From an uncultured Lachnospiraceae bacterium (GTDB lineage: Bacteria > Bacillota > Clostridia > Lachnospirales > Lachnospiraceae), in contig CALZMS010000004.1 in assembly GCA_945788595.1 (NCBI GenBank), positions 1 through 14,918 of the forward strand: 14,918 nucleotides of DNA, read 5' to 3'. The notes beneath the pieces were generated by a model that saw nothing but the letters and a program-made list of their open reading frames with translations, was not told where the DNA came from and ran no database searches. Positions 52 through 14,880 of the stretch are shown one piece after another. The position numbers were made by a program, and so were the translations under genes. Each line of letters starts with the position of its first letter. The stretch's first letter is position 1.

Positions 52-1158
52 TTTATTATTTGTCAGATAATATTTGCCATGCTTATGATATCCCTGAATA
101 CATTCTCCTGTTAATGCGGCACTGCCGGAAACATAGTTCAGATGCTGATAGATCTTATCAGCGACATCCGGTAGATGATAAGGAGACACCTGACCGGTCA
201 TATAGATCGGAATCCAGCTTTCCAGACCCAGCATCATTTCGTGGAAGGGACGATTGATATTGTGGATCATATTCAGGTGCAATCCCTTTTTGAGAGTCAT
301 GGCAATGGCAAACATCCACTTCTTTCCGAAGTCCAGATCCTCTGCCAGATCATCCATCGGCATATCACTGCACATAAAAACAGGCTCCCGGGATTTGGAG
401 AGTACCGTGGTTTTGAAAAAGTCCAGCTCCCCCTTTTTCATTTCTTCCAGTCCGTAGTATGTCCTTGAGGCCGGCAGCTGGAATGGCATGGATGGAACCT
501 TTAATTCATCAAAATGGATGGCGCGGATATATTCGTCCAGATCAAACTCGTCCAGCTTTTTCAGAAAGTTCTCTACATCATCAACGGTTTCTTTTGGAGC
601 AGCCTGATAGAGCCAACTATTCAGATGGGACAGATAATCGGTATCTGACGACAGCTCATCGGCTGTACAGCCTAGCAGTCCGGAAACCTTTGCTTTGTCA
701 GATGGGCTGTTGTAGCGGGTCGTAATAAAGCGGCAGAGCTGGTGGCAGAAGCTGCCCAGATCATTTGGATGCCGTTGACCGGAACGGACGCGGTACAGAT
801 AGGAGGTATCGTAATTAGTCGCCGAAGCCAGAAACTTCATGTTGATGTCCAGTTCATCGATCAGAGTATTGAAGTTTGCAACAAAATTGTCATATTCCAC
901 GTTCCTTTGTTCCAGCGAGTTCTGTAAAGTAGAAAGTACCTCTTCTGCATCCGTGAGATCGGAAATATTCTTTTCGGCAGCCAGCCGGGTGATTCCGGCA
1001 GCCAGCTTCTGCAGTTGTTCACTGTCAGAAGCCGGTTCCCGCTCACCACTGCGATAACGGCTGATCACGGCAGCAGACAATTCTGACGCCTCTGAAAGCT
1101 CCTTTGAGGTACAGGTAAGCTTTTCGATATAGATAGTTATCTGTTCCTGAAATGTCAT
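25..1158 (-). CDS. Double-HTH (XRE-like) transcriptional regulator, probably 3'-truncated
   Basis: A 377-residue cytoplasmic protein with two Cro/C1-type helix-turn-helix segments: residues about 17-43 (SKELSEASELSAAVISRYRSG) and about 107-131 (FLASATNYDTSYLYRVRSG). They are followed by an effector-like region without membrane segments. The start at 1158 has a strong AAGGAGGAG ribosome site and a promoter with a dyad upstream. The tail, from about PELFTAVP to the TGA stop, is read from the hairpin repeat at 1-51. From memory, relatives of this Lachnospiraceae family continue well beyond the YYLTNN block, so I infer that the repeat replaced the true C-terminus. It could still be functional for DNA binding. 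The target genes are unknown. The gene is transcribed in the same direction as the ABC-F gene upstream of it but has its own promoter. Confidence 0.75.
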   Translation of the reverse strand: MTFQEQITIYIEKLTCTSKELSEASELSAAVISRYRSGEREPASDSEQLQKLAAGITRLAAEKNISDLTDAEEVLSTLQNSLEQRNVEYDNFVANFNTLIDELDINMKFLASATNYDTSYLYRVRSGQRHPNDLGSFCHQLCRFITTRYNSPSDKAKVSGLLGCTADELSSDTDYLSHLNSWLYQAAPKETVDDVENFLKKLDEFDLDEYIRAIHFDELKVPSMPFQLPASRTYYGLEEMKKGELDFFKTTVLSKSREPVFMCSDMPMDDLAEDLDFGKKWMFAIAMTLKKGLHLNMIHNINRPFHEMMLGLESWIPIYMTGQVSPYHLPDVADKIYQHLNYVSGSAALTGECIQGYHKHGKYYLTNNKPELFTAVP

Positions 1159-1180
1159 AAAAGGACTCCTCCTTCATAAA

Positions 1181-1234
1181 ATGAACTTCGTTCATTACAG
1201 CAAGTATTATATCAGAAATCCTGCAGAATGAAAA
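1181..1234 (-). promoter_or_regulatory. Promoter with 15-bp dyad operator upstream of the HTH regulator
   Basis: On the minus strand a perfect TATAAT -10 lies at 1206-1211 and a weak -35 (TTTTCA) at 1229-1234, with a 17-bp spacer. Just downstream, around the expected transcription start, is a perfect inverted repeat with arms ATGAAC and GTTCAT around a 3-base centre (1181-1195). Its position fits an operator for autoregulation by the adjacent HTH protein or for another repressor. The -10 and the dyad are seen directly; the role is inferred. Confidence 0.55.
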
Positions 1235-1256
1235 GGAAGGCTGCCAAGCTTCTTGC

Positions 1257-3332
1257 TTACCTTGCTGATTTTTCTGTCTGTTCCTCTATCTGATCCGACA
1301 GCTCGCTCCACTCATACATCCGTTCCTCCAGCTCCTGTTCCTTCGCGGTGATAGACGCCTGGATCTCGGACAGCTTCCCGTAATCAGAGGCATAATCCGG
1401 ATTCAGCAGCTCGTCTCTGGCAGACTGCAGTTCTGCTTCACACTGGGAGATCAGTTCCTCTACCTTGGCAAGTCTCCGGGTCAGCCGGGACAGCTCTTTT
1501 CCCGGATTGTAGCCGGAACCGGAGACAGTACGGTCAGAAGCCGGGACAGAGGCGGCTGTACTCTCGGAGGTGCGGTCTGAACTGCCAGTCGAAGTCCCGG
1601 TTTGACTGCCTTTGTTCTTCGCGTCCGGTATTCCCTTTAGCAGCTGCGCCTCGTCCGGCTGCCCGGTCTTGTCCTGCTGGTACTGCTCGTAGCTGTACGG
1701 ATAATACTGCACCTGGAAGAAGGTGTTATTCCGGCTGTCGGAGGCTCCTGGGTCAGTTGAATCTTCCTCAAAGATCAGCAGGGAATCGGCTATCTGGCTG
1801 ACGAAATAACGGTCATGGGAGACGAAGAGCACCGATCCGTTGAAATCCTTCAGCATGGCCTCCAGCGTTTCTTTTCCCACGATGTCCATGTGGTTGGTAG
1901 GCTCGTCCAGGATCAGAAGATTCGGACGGCGCTTCAGGATCTTGGCCAGCGCCAGACGACCTTTTTCACCGCCGGACAGCATGGACACTTTTTTAAAGAC
2001 GTCATCCGCGGTAAAGAGGAAGGAACCCAGTAAAGTGCGGACTTCCGTTTGGGTCATATCCGGAAATTCATCCCACATATCATCCAGTACGGGTTTCTCA
2101 CTGGAATACTGGGCGATCTGCTGATCGAAGTAACCCACATCCACCTGAAAACCAAACTGGCTGGTGCCGCCCAGTGCAGGCAGCTGTCCGGTCAGTGTTT
2201 TGAGGAGCGTGGATTTTCCGGTTCCATTGGCACCGATCACAGCCAGCTTCTGTCCCCGGTTCATGGTAAAGGACACCTCAGATAAGATATGTTCCGGTGT
2301 GTAGCCGATCTGCAGATGGCTGACAGTTAGCACCTCCTTGCCGGTCTCACGCTTCGGTGTACAGTTGGCATGAAAGGTCCGCAGGTCATAGCGGGCCGGA
2401 GCTTCGATCTTCTCCATATGCTCCAGCTGTTTGAGCTTGGACCAGGCCATGGAGACCTTGGTCGGATGGTGCTTGAATTTCTCGATCAGAGCGGTCAGCC
2501 GCTCGATCTCCTTCTTCTGCTGGGTGTAATCCTTCAGCTGCTTTTCCCAGTTCAGACGCTTGCGCTCTACGAAGGCAGAATAATTGCCGGGATACCGGGT
2601 GGCGGTGCCGTATTCGATCTCATAGACCACATCTGCGATCTTGTCTAAGAACATCCGATCGTGGGAGACGATCACCACAGCACGATTATAGCTTTTCAGA
2701 TAACCCTCCAGCCATTCCACAGCGGCGATATCCAGGTGGTTGGTAGGCTCGTCTAAGAGCAGGATATCCGGTTTGGACAGCAGAAGCTTTGCAAAGGCGA
2801 TCTTGGTGCGCTGTCCTCCGGAAAATTCGGAGAGCCGCTTGTCTCTGACTTCTGCAGGAAAGCCAAACTGCTTTAAGACCATATCGTATTCCCGTTCGTA
2901 ATCGTAGCCGCCCATCCAGGCAAAACGCTCCTCGGCAGAGGCATATTTCCGGGCGAGCTCTTCGGTTGCTTCGGCAGGCAGATCCGGACGATCCAGCTCG
3001 GTAAGCAGCGTCTCCATCCGGGCCTGCAGGTCAAGGATCGGCTGAAAAGCTTTCCGGATCTCGGCCTCCAGTGTGACGGAATCATCCTCAAAAGCCATCT
3101 GCTTTAAGTAGCCGATGACCGGATTACCGGCTCTGGCGATGTAGATATCCTCATCGCTGTCCCGTTTGGACAGGTCTACCTCCCCTGCGATCAGCTTTAA
3201 CAGGGTGGTCTTGCCGCAGCCGTTCCGCCCTACGATTGCGATTTTTTCCGTATCTCTGATCTCAAAATTGATATGCTCTAAAATGGTGTCCGCAGCAAAA
3301 CGGACTGCTCCATTGTGAATCTGATATAACAT
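1257..3332 (-). CDS. ABC-F family ATPase (ribosome-associated, possible antibiotic-resistance type)
   Basis: A 691-residue soluble protein with two ABC domains and no transmembrane segments. Domain 1 has Walker A GRNGCGKT (35-42), signature FSGGQ (170-174) and Walker B ILLLDEP (190-196). A long charged linker lies at about 240-325. Domain 2 has GANGTGKS (367-374), LSGGE (452-456) and LLILDEP (472-478). A Ser/Thr-rich low-complexity stretch (about 573-608) leads to a C-terminal coiled coil (about 613-690), as in Uup/YdiF-type members. ABC-F proteins bind the ribosomal E site and act as translation factors or dislodge ribosome-targeting drugs. The frame is open upstream, but I chose ATG 3332 because GAGGGG precedes it and the ABC fold begins there with LYQIHNG. 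The attenuator in its leader favours a drug-inducible role; the exact subgroup is not determined. Confidence 0.93.
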   Translation of the reverse strand: MLYQIHNGAVRFAADTILEHINFEIRDTEKIAIVGRNGCGKTTLLKLIAGEVDLSKRDSDEDIYIARAGNPVIGYLKQMAFEDDSVTLEAEIRKAFQPILDLQARMETLLTELDRPDLPAEATEELARKYASAEERFAWMGGYDYEREYDMVLKQFGFPAEVRDKRLSEFSGGQRTKIAFAKLLLSKPDILLLDEPTNHLDIAAVEWLEGYLKSYNRAVVIVSHDRMFLDKIADVVYEIEYGTATRYPGNYSAFVERKRLNWEKQLKDYTQQKKEIERLTALIEKFKHHPTKVSMAWSKLKQLEHMEKIEAPARYDLRTFHANCTPKRETGKEVLTVSHLQIGYTPEHILSEVSFTMNRGQKLAVIGANGTGKSTLLKTLTGQLPALGGTSQFGFQVDVGYFDQQIAQYSSEKPVLDDMWDEFPDMTQTEVRTLLGSFLFTADDVFKKVSMLSGGEKGRLALAKILKRRPNLLILDEPTNHMDIVGKETLEAMLKDFNGSVLFVSHDRYFVSQIADSLLIFEEDSTDPGASDSRNNTFFQVQYYPYSYEQYQQDKTGQPDEAQLLKGIPDAKNKGSQTGTSTGSSDRTSESTAASVPASDRTVSGSGYNPGKELSRLTRRLAKVEELISQCEAELQSARDELLNPDYASDYGKLSEIQASITAKEQELEERMYEWSELSDQIEEQTEKSAR

Positions 3333-3367
3333 AATACCCCTCGTTTCTTTCAAATTAAATGAATAAC

Positions 3368-3399
3368 AAAAAAGGTTCCTCCGGCATACGGAAGAACCT
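3368..3399 (-). terminator. Intrinsic terminator in the ABC-F leader (attenuator, segments 3:4)
   Basis: On the minus strand AGGTTCTTCCG (3389-3399) pairs with CGGAGGAACCT (3373-3383) over 11 bp including one G-U pair, with a 5-nt loop and a run of six U. It ends about 35 nt before the ABC-F start codon and about 270 nt after the predicted transcription start, so it would stop leader transcription before the gene. Confidence 0.85.
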
Positions 3400-3636
3400 G
3401 ATAAGCAGACGTAATGTTTTATTCGCCAAAAAGAATGCATACCCGGCTGTCTTACGGACAGCGGTACACGATCTTTCTGTCAAAATCCCTGCTTGTGATT
3501 CTTCCATACCCACAACAAATAAACCATGGCCCGATTCGGATAATAATCATCGAAAAAGGATTCCGATTCGAGTGACACAGTGCTTCCATGGTCTGCCTGA
3601 CGTCCTACAGGCTGCGTGATCAGATGGCAAGAATCA
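3387..3636 (-). promoter_or_regulatory. Attenuator switch: alternative pairings 1:2 and 2:3 in the ABC-F leader
   Basis: Three segments compete. Segment 1 is TGATTCTTGCCAT (3624-3636), inside the leader-peptide codons. Segment 2 is ATGGAAGAATCA (3496-3507). Segment 3 is GGTTCTTCCGTA (3387-3398), which includes the 5' arm of the terminator. Segment 1 pairs with 2 over 12 bp with one bulged G. Segment 2, shifted by one base (3497-3508), pairs with 3 over 12 contiguous bp with two G-U pairs. Segment 3 otherwise forms the terminator. A ribosome stalled on the leader peptide would hide segment 1, freeing 2 to capture 3 and allow read-through. Between 1 and 2 lies a subdomain closed by ACCATGG/CCATGGT (3586-3592 with 3523-3529), and there is a separate GCTGTC/GACAGC hairpin at 3446-3462. 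The pairings are seen; the mechanism is inferred from the trp/erm-type model. Confidence 0.75.
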
Positions 3637-3646
3637 TAAACTGCAT
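3620..3646 (-). CDS. Leader peptide MQFMILAI of the ABC-F attenuator
   Basis: An 8-codon open frame, ATG to TGA, with an AGAGAGGT ribosome site about 7 nt upstream. It starts about 25 nt after the predicted transcription start. Codons 4-8 are the strand that pairs with the anti-terminator segment, so translation or stalling here would control the downstream terminator. The hydrophobic peptide is in the size range of drug-sensing leader peptides upstream of erm and ABC-F genes. Confidence 0.65.
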   Translation of the reverse strand: MQFMILAI

Positions 3647-3677
3647 GGGATTACCTCTCTTTCATAATACTGAAATT

Positions 3678-3706
3678 ACCATAACATACCGGTGGAGATT
3701 TGTCAA
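3678..3706 (-). promoter_or_regulatory. Promoter of the ABC-F leader transcript
   Basis: Minus strand: perfect -35 TTGACA (3701-3706), 17-bp spacer, -10 TATGGT (3678-3683, 4 of 6 consensus). The predicted start is near 3671, which gives a leader of about 340 nt before the ABC-F gene. Confidence 0.8.
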
Positions 3707-12737: not shown

Positions 12738-13535
12738 TTATAGTATCAGTGATTCAGTAAGATTACAAAAATCCTTAACAGGAATATTCTCTTTAAATGG
12801 TAAAGCTGTTTCTAAAAAGGTTTCATCTGCAAATTTCTCGAGTTCAGAATCAAAATGTATAATTGAAACTATTGTATTTAATTGGTATGGGGGAATTGTA
12901 ACAAAATAATCGTAATCTTCGTAAGAAGGAGTGGCACAAGAAACTTTGATTTTTCCGTCCAATTTCAATTTTGTGAATTCACCATAAATGGAGGTTAAGG
13001 CTTTTTCCTTTTCTTCATCAGAAGTAATTCTATCTACATATCTGATATACCAGTAATCTATATTCCCATCTTTTAACTCAATTAAATAATCGTATGATCT
13101 GGGTGTTCCGGATTTTATTGTCCATTCAACTTTATGCAGACTTGTCATCATAGAAAGACCACGCATTAAGGTAGAAAAAAACTTTTCATGTACTTGAATT
13201 GCGGAGAGATCCGGAGAAAATCCATTGTCAGCAATTATTTTCTTCCGTTCCCGTATTTTTTGAGAAGAATATCCAGTCGCATCATATAATTCCTTGATAA
13301 GTTCTGGATCATCAATGGCTTTTGCAATTTTATCAATAGTGCTTTTATATGGTCTTCCAGATCGGGCACCGTTGAGCATTCGTGAAATGGTTGCATTATT
13401 TAAGCCGGTTTGTTCAGATAATTCTTTTTGTGTTTTTGTCTGTAAAATGATTTGAAGTATATTGATGAATCTTTCCTGATCGTAAACGCTGTCAGGATTT
13501 ATTAGTGTGCTTGGATTTGATAAAAATTCGTTCAT
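12738..13535 (-). CDS. XRE-family HTH regulator of the recombinase element
   Basis: A 265-residue cytoplasmic protein with an N-terminal Cro/C1-type helix-turn-helix (about residues 36-58, QKELSEQTGLNNATISRMLNG). A C-terminal domain of about 180 residues, rich in acidic and aromatic positions, follows and is not recognised. ATG 13535 has AAAGGAG 7 nt upstream. It is divergent from the tyrosine recombinase, and the intergenic DNA is crowded with GAAGTCAAA repeats, two of which lie inside its own leader. It is therefore probably the repressor or switch that controls itself and the recombinase. It has its own terminator. AT-rich codon use, unlike the genes left of 12017, marks it as acquired. 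The C-terminal domain could sense an induction signal; that part is inference. Confidence 0.85.
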   Translation of the reverse strand: MNEFLSNPSTLINPDSVYDQERFINILQIILQTKTQKELSEQTGLNNATISRMLNGARSGRPYKSTIDKIAKAIDDPELIKELYDATGYSSQKIRERKKIIADNGFSPDLSAIQVHEKFFSTLMRGLSMMTSLHKVEWTIKSGTPRSYDYLIELKDGNIDYWYIRYVDRITSDEEKEKALTSIYGEFTKLKLDGKIKVSCATPSYEDYDYFVTIPPYQLNTIVSIIHFDSELEKFADETFLETALPFKENIPVKDFCNLTESLIL

Positions 13536-13688: not shown

Positions 13689-13716
13689 TTGACATTTTGA
13701 CTTCTTTGTGTATAAT
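13689..13716 (+). promoter_or_regulatory. Consensus promoter of the tyrosine recombinase
   Basis: -35 TTGACA (13689-13694), 16-bp spacer, -10 TATAAT (13711-13716): both boxes are perfect. A TTGACTTC operator copy lies within the spacer and copies flank both sides, so the promoter is strong but probably tightly repressed. Confidence 0.88.
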
Positions 13717-13776
13717 GTAAAATTAAGAAGTCAAAGAAGTCAAATAAATCAAAATGAAAGGAAGGAGGGCTGTGGA

Positions 13777-14880
13777 TTGAAATATAGGGTTGTTTCGGTT
13801 TTAAAAGATAATAGACCACGTTTTTTGATTATTTCTGATATAGAAGAAATTGCAATCCTTCCATCAAAGTATTTGAAGCATCTGGATCAGATTAATGCTT
13901 CTCCGAATACTGTAAAATCCACAGCCTTCGCACTTTCATATTATTACAATTTTCTGCAGGAACAAACGATAGGATTGGATGAGGTTACATTGCTGTCCTA
14001 TTCAGAGCAGAATAAACATTTTATTGATTTCTTGTATTGGGTTAAGGATGGAAAACATACGGAACACAATACACAGACGAGCAATAAGACCTGCAATATG
14101 TATCTTGGTGCAGTTTTCAGATATTATCAGTTCTTGGCGCTGGAAGATGTTTTGCCAATGATTAAAGTCTTACGAGTGAAAAAAGTATCGTATTTTGACA
14201 GCATGGGAGTAAATCATCAAAATTCAGTGAATTCGTTTAAAGGTTTCTTCAGAGAAGAAGAACCGAATCTGGAAGAAATTACATCGGAAGAAATACAGGA
14301 ACTGATAAATGCCTGTACGAATGATAGAGACCGATTGCTGATAGCAATGATGGCAGAAACCGGTCTTAGATTAGGGGAAATTCTGGGAATACATTATACC
14401 GAAGATATTGATTTTGAAAGAAGGACAATTCGTGTAAGGTATCGTGAAACCAATACCAACTTGGCGAGGGCGAAAAATGCAGAATATAGAATGGCATTGT
14501 TAAGCAATACAACTTTTGAGTTTTTGGTTAAATATATTTCTGACAACCGGAAAAGTCTGATGAATTCGGAATATCTGTTCACAAAATTGACTGGGAAAAA
14601 CAAGGGGGAGCCATTAGATGCGGATTCTGTATATAGCATGTTGAAAAGTCTATCCAAAAAGACGGATATTAATTCACATCCCCATCAGCTTCGACATTAT
14701 TTTGCGGAGGAACGAAGAAAAGAAGGATGGGATTTGAACGATATACGTTTTGCTTTAGGTCATAAGAAAGTTGAAACTACCATTAAATATTTGGGTGAGA
14801 ATAATGAACGGTTGATAGAAGCGACAGATCAGTATTATTCGAATAATGAAGATTTATATCAAATTGCAGATTTTCTGTAA
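13777..14880 (+). CDS. Tyrosine recombinase (integrase/TnpA-like)
   Basis: A 367-residue tyrosine recombinase that cuts and rejoins DNA through a phosphotyrosine bond. The N-terminal SAM-like core-binding region (about 30-135, SPNTVKSTAFALSYYYNFL) is followed by the catalytic domain (about 170-345): Arg198 (TGLRLGE), a candidate Lys233, His303 and Arg306 (HPHQLRH), His329 (LGH) and nucleophile Tyr338 (TTIKYLG). All catalytic residues are present, so it is likely active. The start is TTG 13777, 7 nt after AAGGAGGG; the frame is open back to 13708, but that part overlaps the promoter and operators. Another gene with the same TTG-type start follows after 18 nt, recalling the tandem recombinases of Tn554-like transposons. 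AT-rich base use marks it as acquired. Confidence 0.9.
   Translation: MKYRVVSVLKDNRPRFLIISDIEEIAILPSKYLKHLDQINASPNTVKSTAFALSYYYNFLQEQTIGLDEVTLLSYSEQNKHFIDFLYWVKDGKHTEHNTQTSNKTCNMYLGAVFRYYQFLALEDVLPMIKVLRVKKVSYFDSMGVNHQNSVNSFKGFFREEEPNLEEITSEEIQELINACTNDRDRLLIAMMAETGLRLGEILGIHYTEDIDFERRTIRVRYRETNTNLARAKNAEYRMALLSNTTFEFLVKYISDNRKSLMNSEYLFTKLTGKNKGEPLDADSVYSMLKSLSKKTDINSHPHQLRHYFAEERRKEGWDLNDIRFALGHKKVETTIKYLGENNERLIEATDQYYSNNEDLYQIADFL

Follow-up and report, generated by a model that had tools for sequence, protein, structure and literature searches.

A probable vmlR-like transcription attenuator ahead of a chromosomal OptrA-related ABC-F gene in Lachnospiraceae

How does an uncultured Lachnospiraceae bacterium switch on a chromosomal relative of the mobile resistance gene optrA? 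The question is posed by an ABC-F gene at 1257..3332 on the minus strand of the window, by which we mean the whole 14,918-nt stretch of DNA that was analysed. A leader of about 340 nt, on the same strand, separates its promoter (3706-3678) from its start codon (3332). Our answer is that this leader is very probably a ribosome-controlled transcription attenuator like that of Bacillus subtilis vmlR. Its parts, their conservation and covariation, and its mutually exclusive folds are established by sequence and computation.

The gene encodes a 691-residue protein whose profile matches, plasmid matches and place in a tree make it an OptrA-related, ribosomal-protection-like ABC-F protein. It scores 468.6 bits with the NCBIfam profile for ribosomal protection-like ABC-F proteins (NF000355), over the cut-off of 380 bits. 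Its best NCBIfam profile is that of OptrA (NF000514), where 635 bits falls far under the cut-off of 1450 bits; the CplR profile gives 282 bits (cut-off 780). OptrA was the best among the plasmid matches listed, with 51-52% identity over residues 1-527, and comparison with mobile OptrA gives about 52% over residues 1-526. A tree of 46 ABC-F rows places three plasmid OptrA rows next to a group of 33 Lachnospiraceae proteins, among them that of the window. Support is 91/89 for the 33 and 98/99 for their joint group with OptrA, where long branches, the OptrA rows among them, meet and make the join less sure than its support values. The interdomain linker aligns to OptrA without gaps, as do the linkers of relatives that have no leader. 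We take the protein to be probably ribosome-protective. In one close relative (L034, 3001-4662) the ABC-F frame hits an in-frame stop after 553 residues, and in a similar genome, G124, the search tool gave one TAG within its ABC-F match.

All the parts of the leader lie on the minus strand. The promoter, a sigma-70-type consensus match (TTGACA-17-TATGGT, 3678..3706), is followed by a ribosome site, AGAGAGG (3654..3660), and an eight-codon open reading frame (ORF), MQFMILAI* (3620..3646), recognised from the sequence and from the ORFs of relatives. Segment 1 (3622..3652), which takes in the ribosome-site region and the ORF, is by folding and pairing the 5' side of an anti-antiterminator. Next comes a conserved hairpin (3523..3592), a predicted pause hairpin with outer arms ACCATGG/CCATGGT and an inner hairpin, and then TTATTTGTTGTG (3511..3522), with TTNTTT inside it and a predicted NusG-dependent pause near 3512. 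Segment 2 (3484..3513) is, by pairing and stall-masked folding, the partner of either segment 1 or segment 3. Segment 3 is the 5' arm of an intrinsic terminator hairpin of 11 bp with a 5-nt loop (3373..3399), after which there is a U tract (3366..3372). Last comes GAGGGG (3337..3342), from its sequence the likely ribosome site of the ABC-F gene. The sequence-only reading that preceded this work had named the promoter, Shine-Dalgarno sequence, ORF, segment 2 (there 3508-3496) and U-tract terminator, and all are found where it put them. It overlooked the conserved hairpin and TTTATTTGTTGTG block (about 3592-3511) directly ahead of segment 2, and it was wrong to call the fold unfamiliar: the architecture is that of the vmlR leader as set out in PMC9226507, with a different ORF of different length.

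Taken alone, scans for such elements say little. The window holds seven promoter-like sites, compared with 3.4 +/- 2.2 in shuffles, and two terminator-like sites, compared with 2.3. No Rfam family reached its gathering score for the leader; the lone signal was a match to an unrelated family, below threshold and on the opposite strand. The fold of the leader as a whole is another matter, at -104.9 kcal/mol against -81.4 kcal/mol in shuffles (z -5.0, 0 of 100 as low). That shuffles hold terminator-like matches just as often is the one point in favour of chance, that is, of a short ORF and a terminator that merely happen to pair. We reject this as scarcely credible: it runs against conservation in six other genomes and against the covariation, permutation and shuffle results given below.

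Where else does the leader occur? At E <= 1e-140, a cut that excludes more distant ABC-F proteins, 36 of 397 sampled Lachnospiraceae genomes have a homologue of the gene, the window's genome included. The locus was examined in 30 of the 36, and four have the leader: G000 (the window's genome), G298, G124 and G154. The genus of G154 has the gene in four of five genomes searched at the same cut, and the leader in all four of those. These add three more species to the four genomes above and bring the total to seven, the window's and six other Lachnospiraceae, and the leader always stands before the orthologous ABC-F gene. They form two clades, each with 100/100 support: clade A holds the window, L053 (from G298) and L034 (G124 by match), and clade B holds G154, G423, G424 and G425. 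The remaining 26 of the 33 Lachnospiraceae rows in the tree have no such leader, and with two separate leader-bearing clades this means that the leader has either often been lost or has moved.

All seven genomes are predicted to have an upstream ORF that can be translated from a ribosome site of its own. The site, G[AC]GAGG[TC]A, stands ahead of the ORF in 7/7 leaders, and an exact TTGACA with a -10-like hexamer in six of seven distinct leaders (L070 has TTGATA). The peptides of the relatives are MRFTIFAV, MQFTILAI, MKRCL (two genomes), MMLCI and MILCI. Between the window and L034, four of the five changed sense codons are synonymous. Two contigs from metagenome-assembled genomes, L032 and L033, carry the window's leader with nine substitutions, all in the 26-nt linker (3409-3434) that lies between segment 2 and the terminator; L032 has only three other differences from the window over its whole 3055-bp contig.

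Two covariance models were used. R1, built from four leaders with the window excluded, aligns along the full length of the window leader, where the hairpin loop takes an insertion of 55 nt; the score is low, at 24.2 bits (E 0.095 in 256 kb). R2, built from all seven leaders, finds the same four genomes strongly among the 397 (E <= 2e-8), matches that are not independent of the leaders from which it was made. Of its seven further weak matches there (E 0.04-1), only one, L116, looks leader-like by eye. An order-wide R2 scan of 315 genomes at E <= 0.1 found G000 only, and a class-wide R1 scan found 0/391, though leader-bearing G000 was likewise missed; the genome scans with both models used stricter filters, at which weak matches are lost. 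A 28-base pattern from the start of the clade-A leader, with up to three mismatches, occurs in four of the 397 family genomes: G000, G298, G124 and, as a chance-like match without a model hit, G374. Carriage on mobile or viral DNA was rejected too. The leader DNA has no match among plasmids and four weak ones among phages (E 0.6). Three scans of viral contigs returned 0, 4 and 12 pattern matches, and among the 12, R1 picks out only L104 (24.5 bits) and L102 (18.3). R2 gives L104 31.4 bits, with the hairpin and pause block absent.

Do the segments pair as an attenuator should? In the window, 1:2 pairing is worth -24.0 kcal/mol (p 0.015 against segment-2 shuffles) and 2:3 pairing -29.5 kcal/mol (p 0.0005 against segment-3 shuffles). 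As in vmlR-type attenuators, the ORF is buried in the anti-antiterminator (1:2), and 2:3 excludes the intrinsic terminator in the window; in L070 and G423 it does so only as nascent RNA. Judged leader by leader, 1:2 outdoes its shuffles in the window, L053, L034 and L091 (p 0.0005-0.015) and shows no excess over them in L070, G423 and L092 (p 0.06, 0.10 and 0.15). A segment 3 is present in six leaders, and in each of them 2:3 pairs better than shuffles do (p 0.0005-0.04); L034 has none. When ORFs and segments 2 were reassigned among six leaders (the window, L053, L034, L070, L091 and L092; G423 was omitted as a near copy of L070), the pairing of each ORF with its own segment 2 had the lowest summed energy of 720 assignments. 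In clade B, three of the 11 pairs of the ORF:segment-2 helix are changed on both sides, and three are broken, in two, one and two of the four sequences. The whole clade-B structure has 93.1% of its cells paired, compared with 29-42% when slid, and 9 of 500 shuffles match its covariation score.

We then modelled a stalled ribosome by holding unpaired the RNA upstream of it and beneath it, with the P site set by codon. At equilibrium the window terminator falls from 0.97 in free RNA to 0.20, 0.11, 0.09 and 0.01 with the P site at codons 4, 5, 6 and 7. At codon 8 it stands at 0.41, a less complete switch, and at codons 1, 2 and 3 at 0.77, 0.76 and 0.47. The clade-B leaders switch poorly: the equilibrium antiterminator with a ribosome is 0.00 in L070 and G423, which stay in the terminator state, 0.17-0.25 in L091 and at most 0.23 in L092, which leave it in part. 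Nascent RNA, modelled as a transcript ending 5 nt beyond segment 3, responds more widely. A ribosome over the ORF raises 2:3 in 6/6 leaders; in the window it goes from 0.14 to 0.91. None of 200 segment-2 shuffles equals this rise in the window, L070 or L053; 18 of 200 do so in L092, 30 in L091 and 38 in G423. Conservation in relatives, the lack of which the sequence-only reading had named as grounds to refute it, was sought and is present. The four-segment, ribosome-controlled attenuator of that reading is supported on several counts: leaders and ORFs recur in six other genomes and two clades, 1:2 covaries in clade B, 2:3 beats shuffles in 6/6 leaders, and masking segment 1 with a modelled stall moves the nascent window RNA from 1:2 to 2:3.

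These same numbers bear on where the ribosome would stall. The switch could work through arrest at initiation, by a pleuromutilin, lincosamide or streptogramin A and with little dependence on the peptide. The vmlR and cplR leaders, with their three-codon ORFs, are reported to respond in this way (PMC9226507, PMC10201436), and in our nascent-RNA model of the window 2:3 reaches 0.91 with the ribosome at codon 1 just as it does with the ribosome at the end of the ORF, so that segment 2 is released about equally in both cases. We consider this rather unlikely. The equilibrium terminator stays at 0.77 with the ribosome at codon 1, against 0.20-0.01 at codons 4-7; the window ORF has eight codons and a peptide kept by mostly synonymous change; and the protein groups with OptrA, whose spectrum is phenicols and oxazolidinones (PMC8987054).

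The stretch that the earlier reading passed over suggests how the ribosome might be given time to load. The hairpin arms and T-rich block stand just ahead of segment 2 in 7/7 leaders, and TTNTTT is intact in five of seven distinct leaders, broken in L070 and G423. In NusG pauses TTNTTT sits at about -11 to -6. Such spacing in the window would put the RNA end near 3512, 11-12 nt past the hairpin. NusG-dependent pausing in B. subtilis is described as relying on a non-template-strand TTNTTT and on a hairpin that lies 11-12 nt back from the RNA end, and the same account names an Asn-Thr pair for pro-pausing NusG (PMC12288461). A housekeeping NusG with that pair, its correspondence judged by eye, is present in 5/5 genomes tested; G298 has in addition a second, distant NusG-like protein without it. 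In the hairpin and TTNTTT block we see a likeness to the NusG-dependent pauses of vmlR and tlrB, and we predict a pause here. In clade B the terminator loop is a possible pairing partner for part of the T-rich block, and pausing may therefore not be the sole reason why the block is conserved there.

From these parts we infer both pausing and drug-dependent stalling, and the mechanism that we favour would run as follows. In the absence of drug, the leader ribosome site and ORF would pair with segment 2 (1:2), leaving segment 3 free to form the terminator, and transcription would halt about 40 nt short of the gene. A probable pause of RNA polymerase at the TTTATTTGTTGTG block and CCATGG hairpin, before segment 2 emerges, would allow time for a ribosome to load on the leader ORF. 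A drug acting at the peptidyl transferase centre, the inducer that we think likely, would arrest that ribosome within MQFMILAI, with the neighbourhood of codons 7-8 as the likeliest place; with codon 8 in the P site, Ala is penultimate and the stop codon is next. The arrested ribosome would cover segment 1, 2:3 would pair, the terminator would be barred and the ABC-F gene would be transcribed.

Which drug? Tentatively, and with a little less than even confidence, we suggest a phenicol- or oxazolidinone-type compound. Phenicols and oxazolidinones are the drugs against which OptrA and PoxtA protect, and chloramphenicol and linezolid arrest the ribosome best with a penultimate Ala, less well with Ser or Thr (PMC8987054). 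All three clade-A peptides end Ala-(Ile/Val)-stop. It is this ending, together with the kinship to OptrA, that favours these drugs over the others listed by the sequence-only reading. The clade-B peptides (4/4) end Cys-(Ile/Leu)-stop, and Cys is not among the arrest residues named there. The endings fit an arrest in which the P site holds the last sense codon; against this stands the codon-8 model, with its less complete switch than codons 4-7.

The short hydrophobic peptides of clade B, MILCI and MMLCI, which end at a stop codon, bring macrolides to mind, as the msrD leader peptide MsrDL (MYLIFM) is arrested at termination (PMC10314930). Macrolide sensing through the same switch is nevertheless improbable, since the clade-A peptides are unlike MsrDL and OptrA gives no protection against erythromycin (MIC 0.5, compared with 0.5-1 for the empty vector; PMC8987054). 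Might the leader instead sense slow translation in general, through drug-free stalling or starvation, and might the ABC-F protein be a housekeeping factor for ribosome rescue whose activity feeds back on the leader of its gene? The nearest relative of OptrA is reported to be the probable housekeeping protein YdiF (PMC8987054), and 26 of 33 relatives do without the leader. We find this idea unlikely: a homologue in only 36 of 397 family genomes at E <= 1e-140 is not housekeeping-like, and the leader ORFs have no run of one regulatory codon. An amino acid attenuator is rejected on that same ground, no leader ORF having a single-codon run.

How does the leader compare with known systems? With vmlR (PMC9226507) it shares a uORF in the anti-antiterminator, a hairpin with the NusG motif TTNTTT (here a predicted pause signal), an antiterminator, an intrinsic terminator, a downstream ABC-F gene and also a translational layer, which here is computed for relatives. 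The likeness is one of architecture, the sequences not having been aligned. The vmlR leader has a three-codon uORF, MIN, and initiation arrest, whereas here the ORF has eight codons (clade A) or five (clade B), and relatives appear to swap the terminator for sequestration of the Shine-Dalgarno sequence. The B. subtilis tlrB (yxjB) leader (PMC6851288) has a NusG pause between ORF and gene that gives the ribosome time to load, as we predict here, and it combines transcription with translation attenuation, as this leader family appears to do. It differs in its gene, which encodes a 23S rRNA methylase, in its RYR arrest motif and in that no overlapping antiterminator was identified in that work. 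MsrDL (PMC10314930) shares a short hydrophobic peptide, stop-codon arrest (here predicted), a terminator, TTNTTT and an ABC-F gene, but has TTNTTT within the ORF, the peptide MYLIFM and a response to cladinose macrolides. The Clostridioides difficile cplR leader (PMC10201436) is likewise that of a clostridial ABC-F gene, with a uORF, terminator and Shine-Dalgarno sequestration; its uORF is MR[I/M], and the terminator stem itself hides the Shine-Dalgarno sequence. Mobile optrA has an upstream ORF too. Four plasmids (L108-L111, about 1360-1500) carry a conserved ORF, MKSTTxVTFKELHV*, ahead of optrA. By eye, the RNA there can adopt alternative pairings, and these could hide the optrA Shine-Dalgarno sequence. 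The ORF has 14 residues, a terminator was not seen by eye, and the leader shows no likeness to ours. We found nothing on it in the open-access literature searched. Nor did the open-access papers searched yield an account of our peptides or of a leader for this gene group.

What the sensor controls may differ even between close relatives. No clear terminator was found in L053, where segment 3 matches both segment 2 and the gene's Shine-Dalgarno sequence (duplex -12.3 kcal/mol); a stalled leader ribosome lowers the modelled cost of opening the gene start region from 14.2 to 5.9-6.3 kcal/mol. In L034 it is the 1:2 hairpin itself that takes in the Shine-Dalgarno region of the gene, and the opening cost falls on stalling from 10.6 to 4.0-4.8 kcal/mol; unlike this energy, the unpaired probability of its Shine-Dalgarno sequence does not clearly change. 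In the window the cost goes up, from 2.6 to 3.8-6.5 kcal/mol. In these models one sensor appears to act through a terminator in some leaders (the window and clade B) and through Shine-Dalgarno sequestration in others (L053 and L034). It is possible, though we lean against it, that the ORF, pause hairpin and segment 2 make up a sensor module, whether inherited or mobile, that belongs to the sister group of OptrA in the Lachnospiraceae, with three outputs (terminator; segment 3 on the Shine-Dalgarno sequence; direct sequestration in 1:2), tuned to phenicol/oxazolidinone-type arrest by the penultimate Ala (or Cys) before the stop codon.

A few neighbouring observations deserve a place here. In G423 (contig C576; L093, about 105-2000, minus strand) a group II intron, recognised by matches to Rfam RF02001 and RF01998 and a 439-residue reverse-transcriptase-like ORF, sits directly after the clade-B terminator U tract and separates the leader from the ABC-F gene. 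Terminators are favoured sites of class C introns, and on that preference the insertion site would support the hairpin as a terminator. L116 (1501-1610; G202:C48:44879-44984) has an ORF, MRSPI*, the hairpin GACCATTCAAGTGGTC and TTTTTGTTGTGG directly before a gene of 382 codons, whose product is MFS-transporter-like by eye; the R2 match is weak (33 bits, E 0.037 per genome). This could be chance, or else a pause leader akin to ours that serves a different gene. The right end of the window itself holds a gene (13708-14880) with tyrosine-recombinase profile matches; beside it, 12738-13535 encodes a product that is helix-turn-helix-like by eye and has no NCBIfam match. This end is perhaps the edge of a mobile element.

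What, then, does the leader add? The principle, of the vmlR kind, is known. New are this family of leaders and the gene that it precedes, its division into two clades and an apparent swapping of outputs. The small set of characterised ABC-F attenuators is joined by a leader family that is conserved and has peptides of its own. It occurs in gut-type Lachnospiraceae, and the chromosomal ABC-F proteins of these bacteria group with OptrA, a mobile oxazolidinone and phenicol determinant. The family is also a case for the suggestion, made in PMC9226507, that further resistance leaders with NusG pauses are worth seeking. Clear predictions follow, for the arrest codon, the drug class, the pause site and the compensatory pairs. 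Among near relatives, one sensor appears to serve both transcriptional and translational outputs, and if the idea of a sensor module is true, that module would be the native drug-sensing circuit of OptrA's chromosomal relatives.
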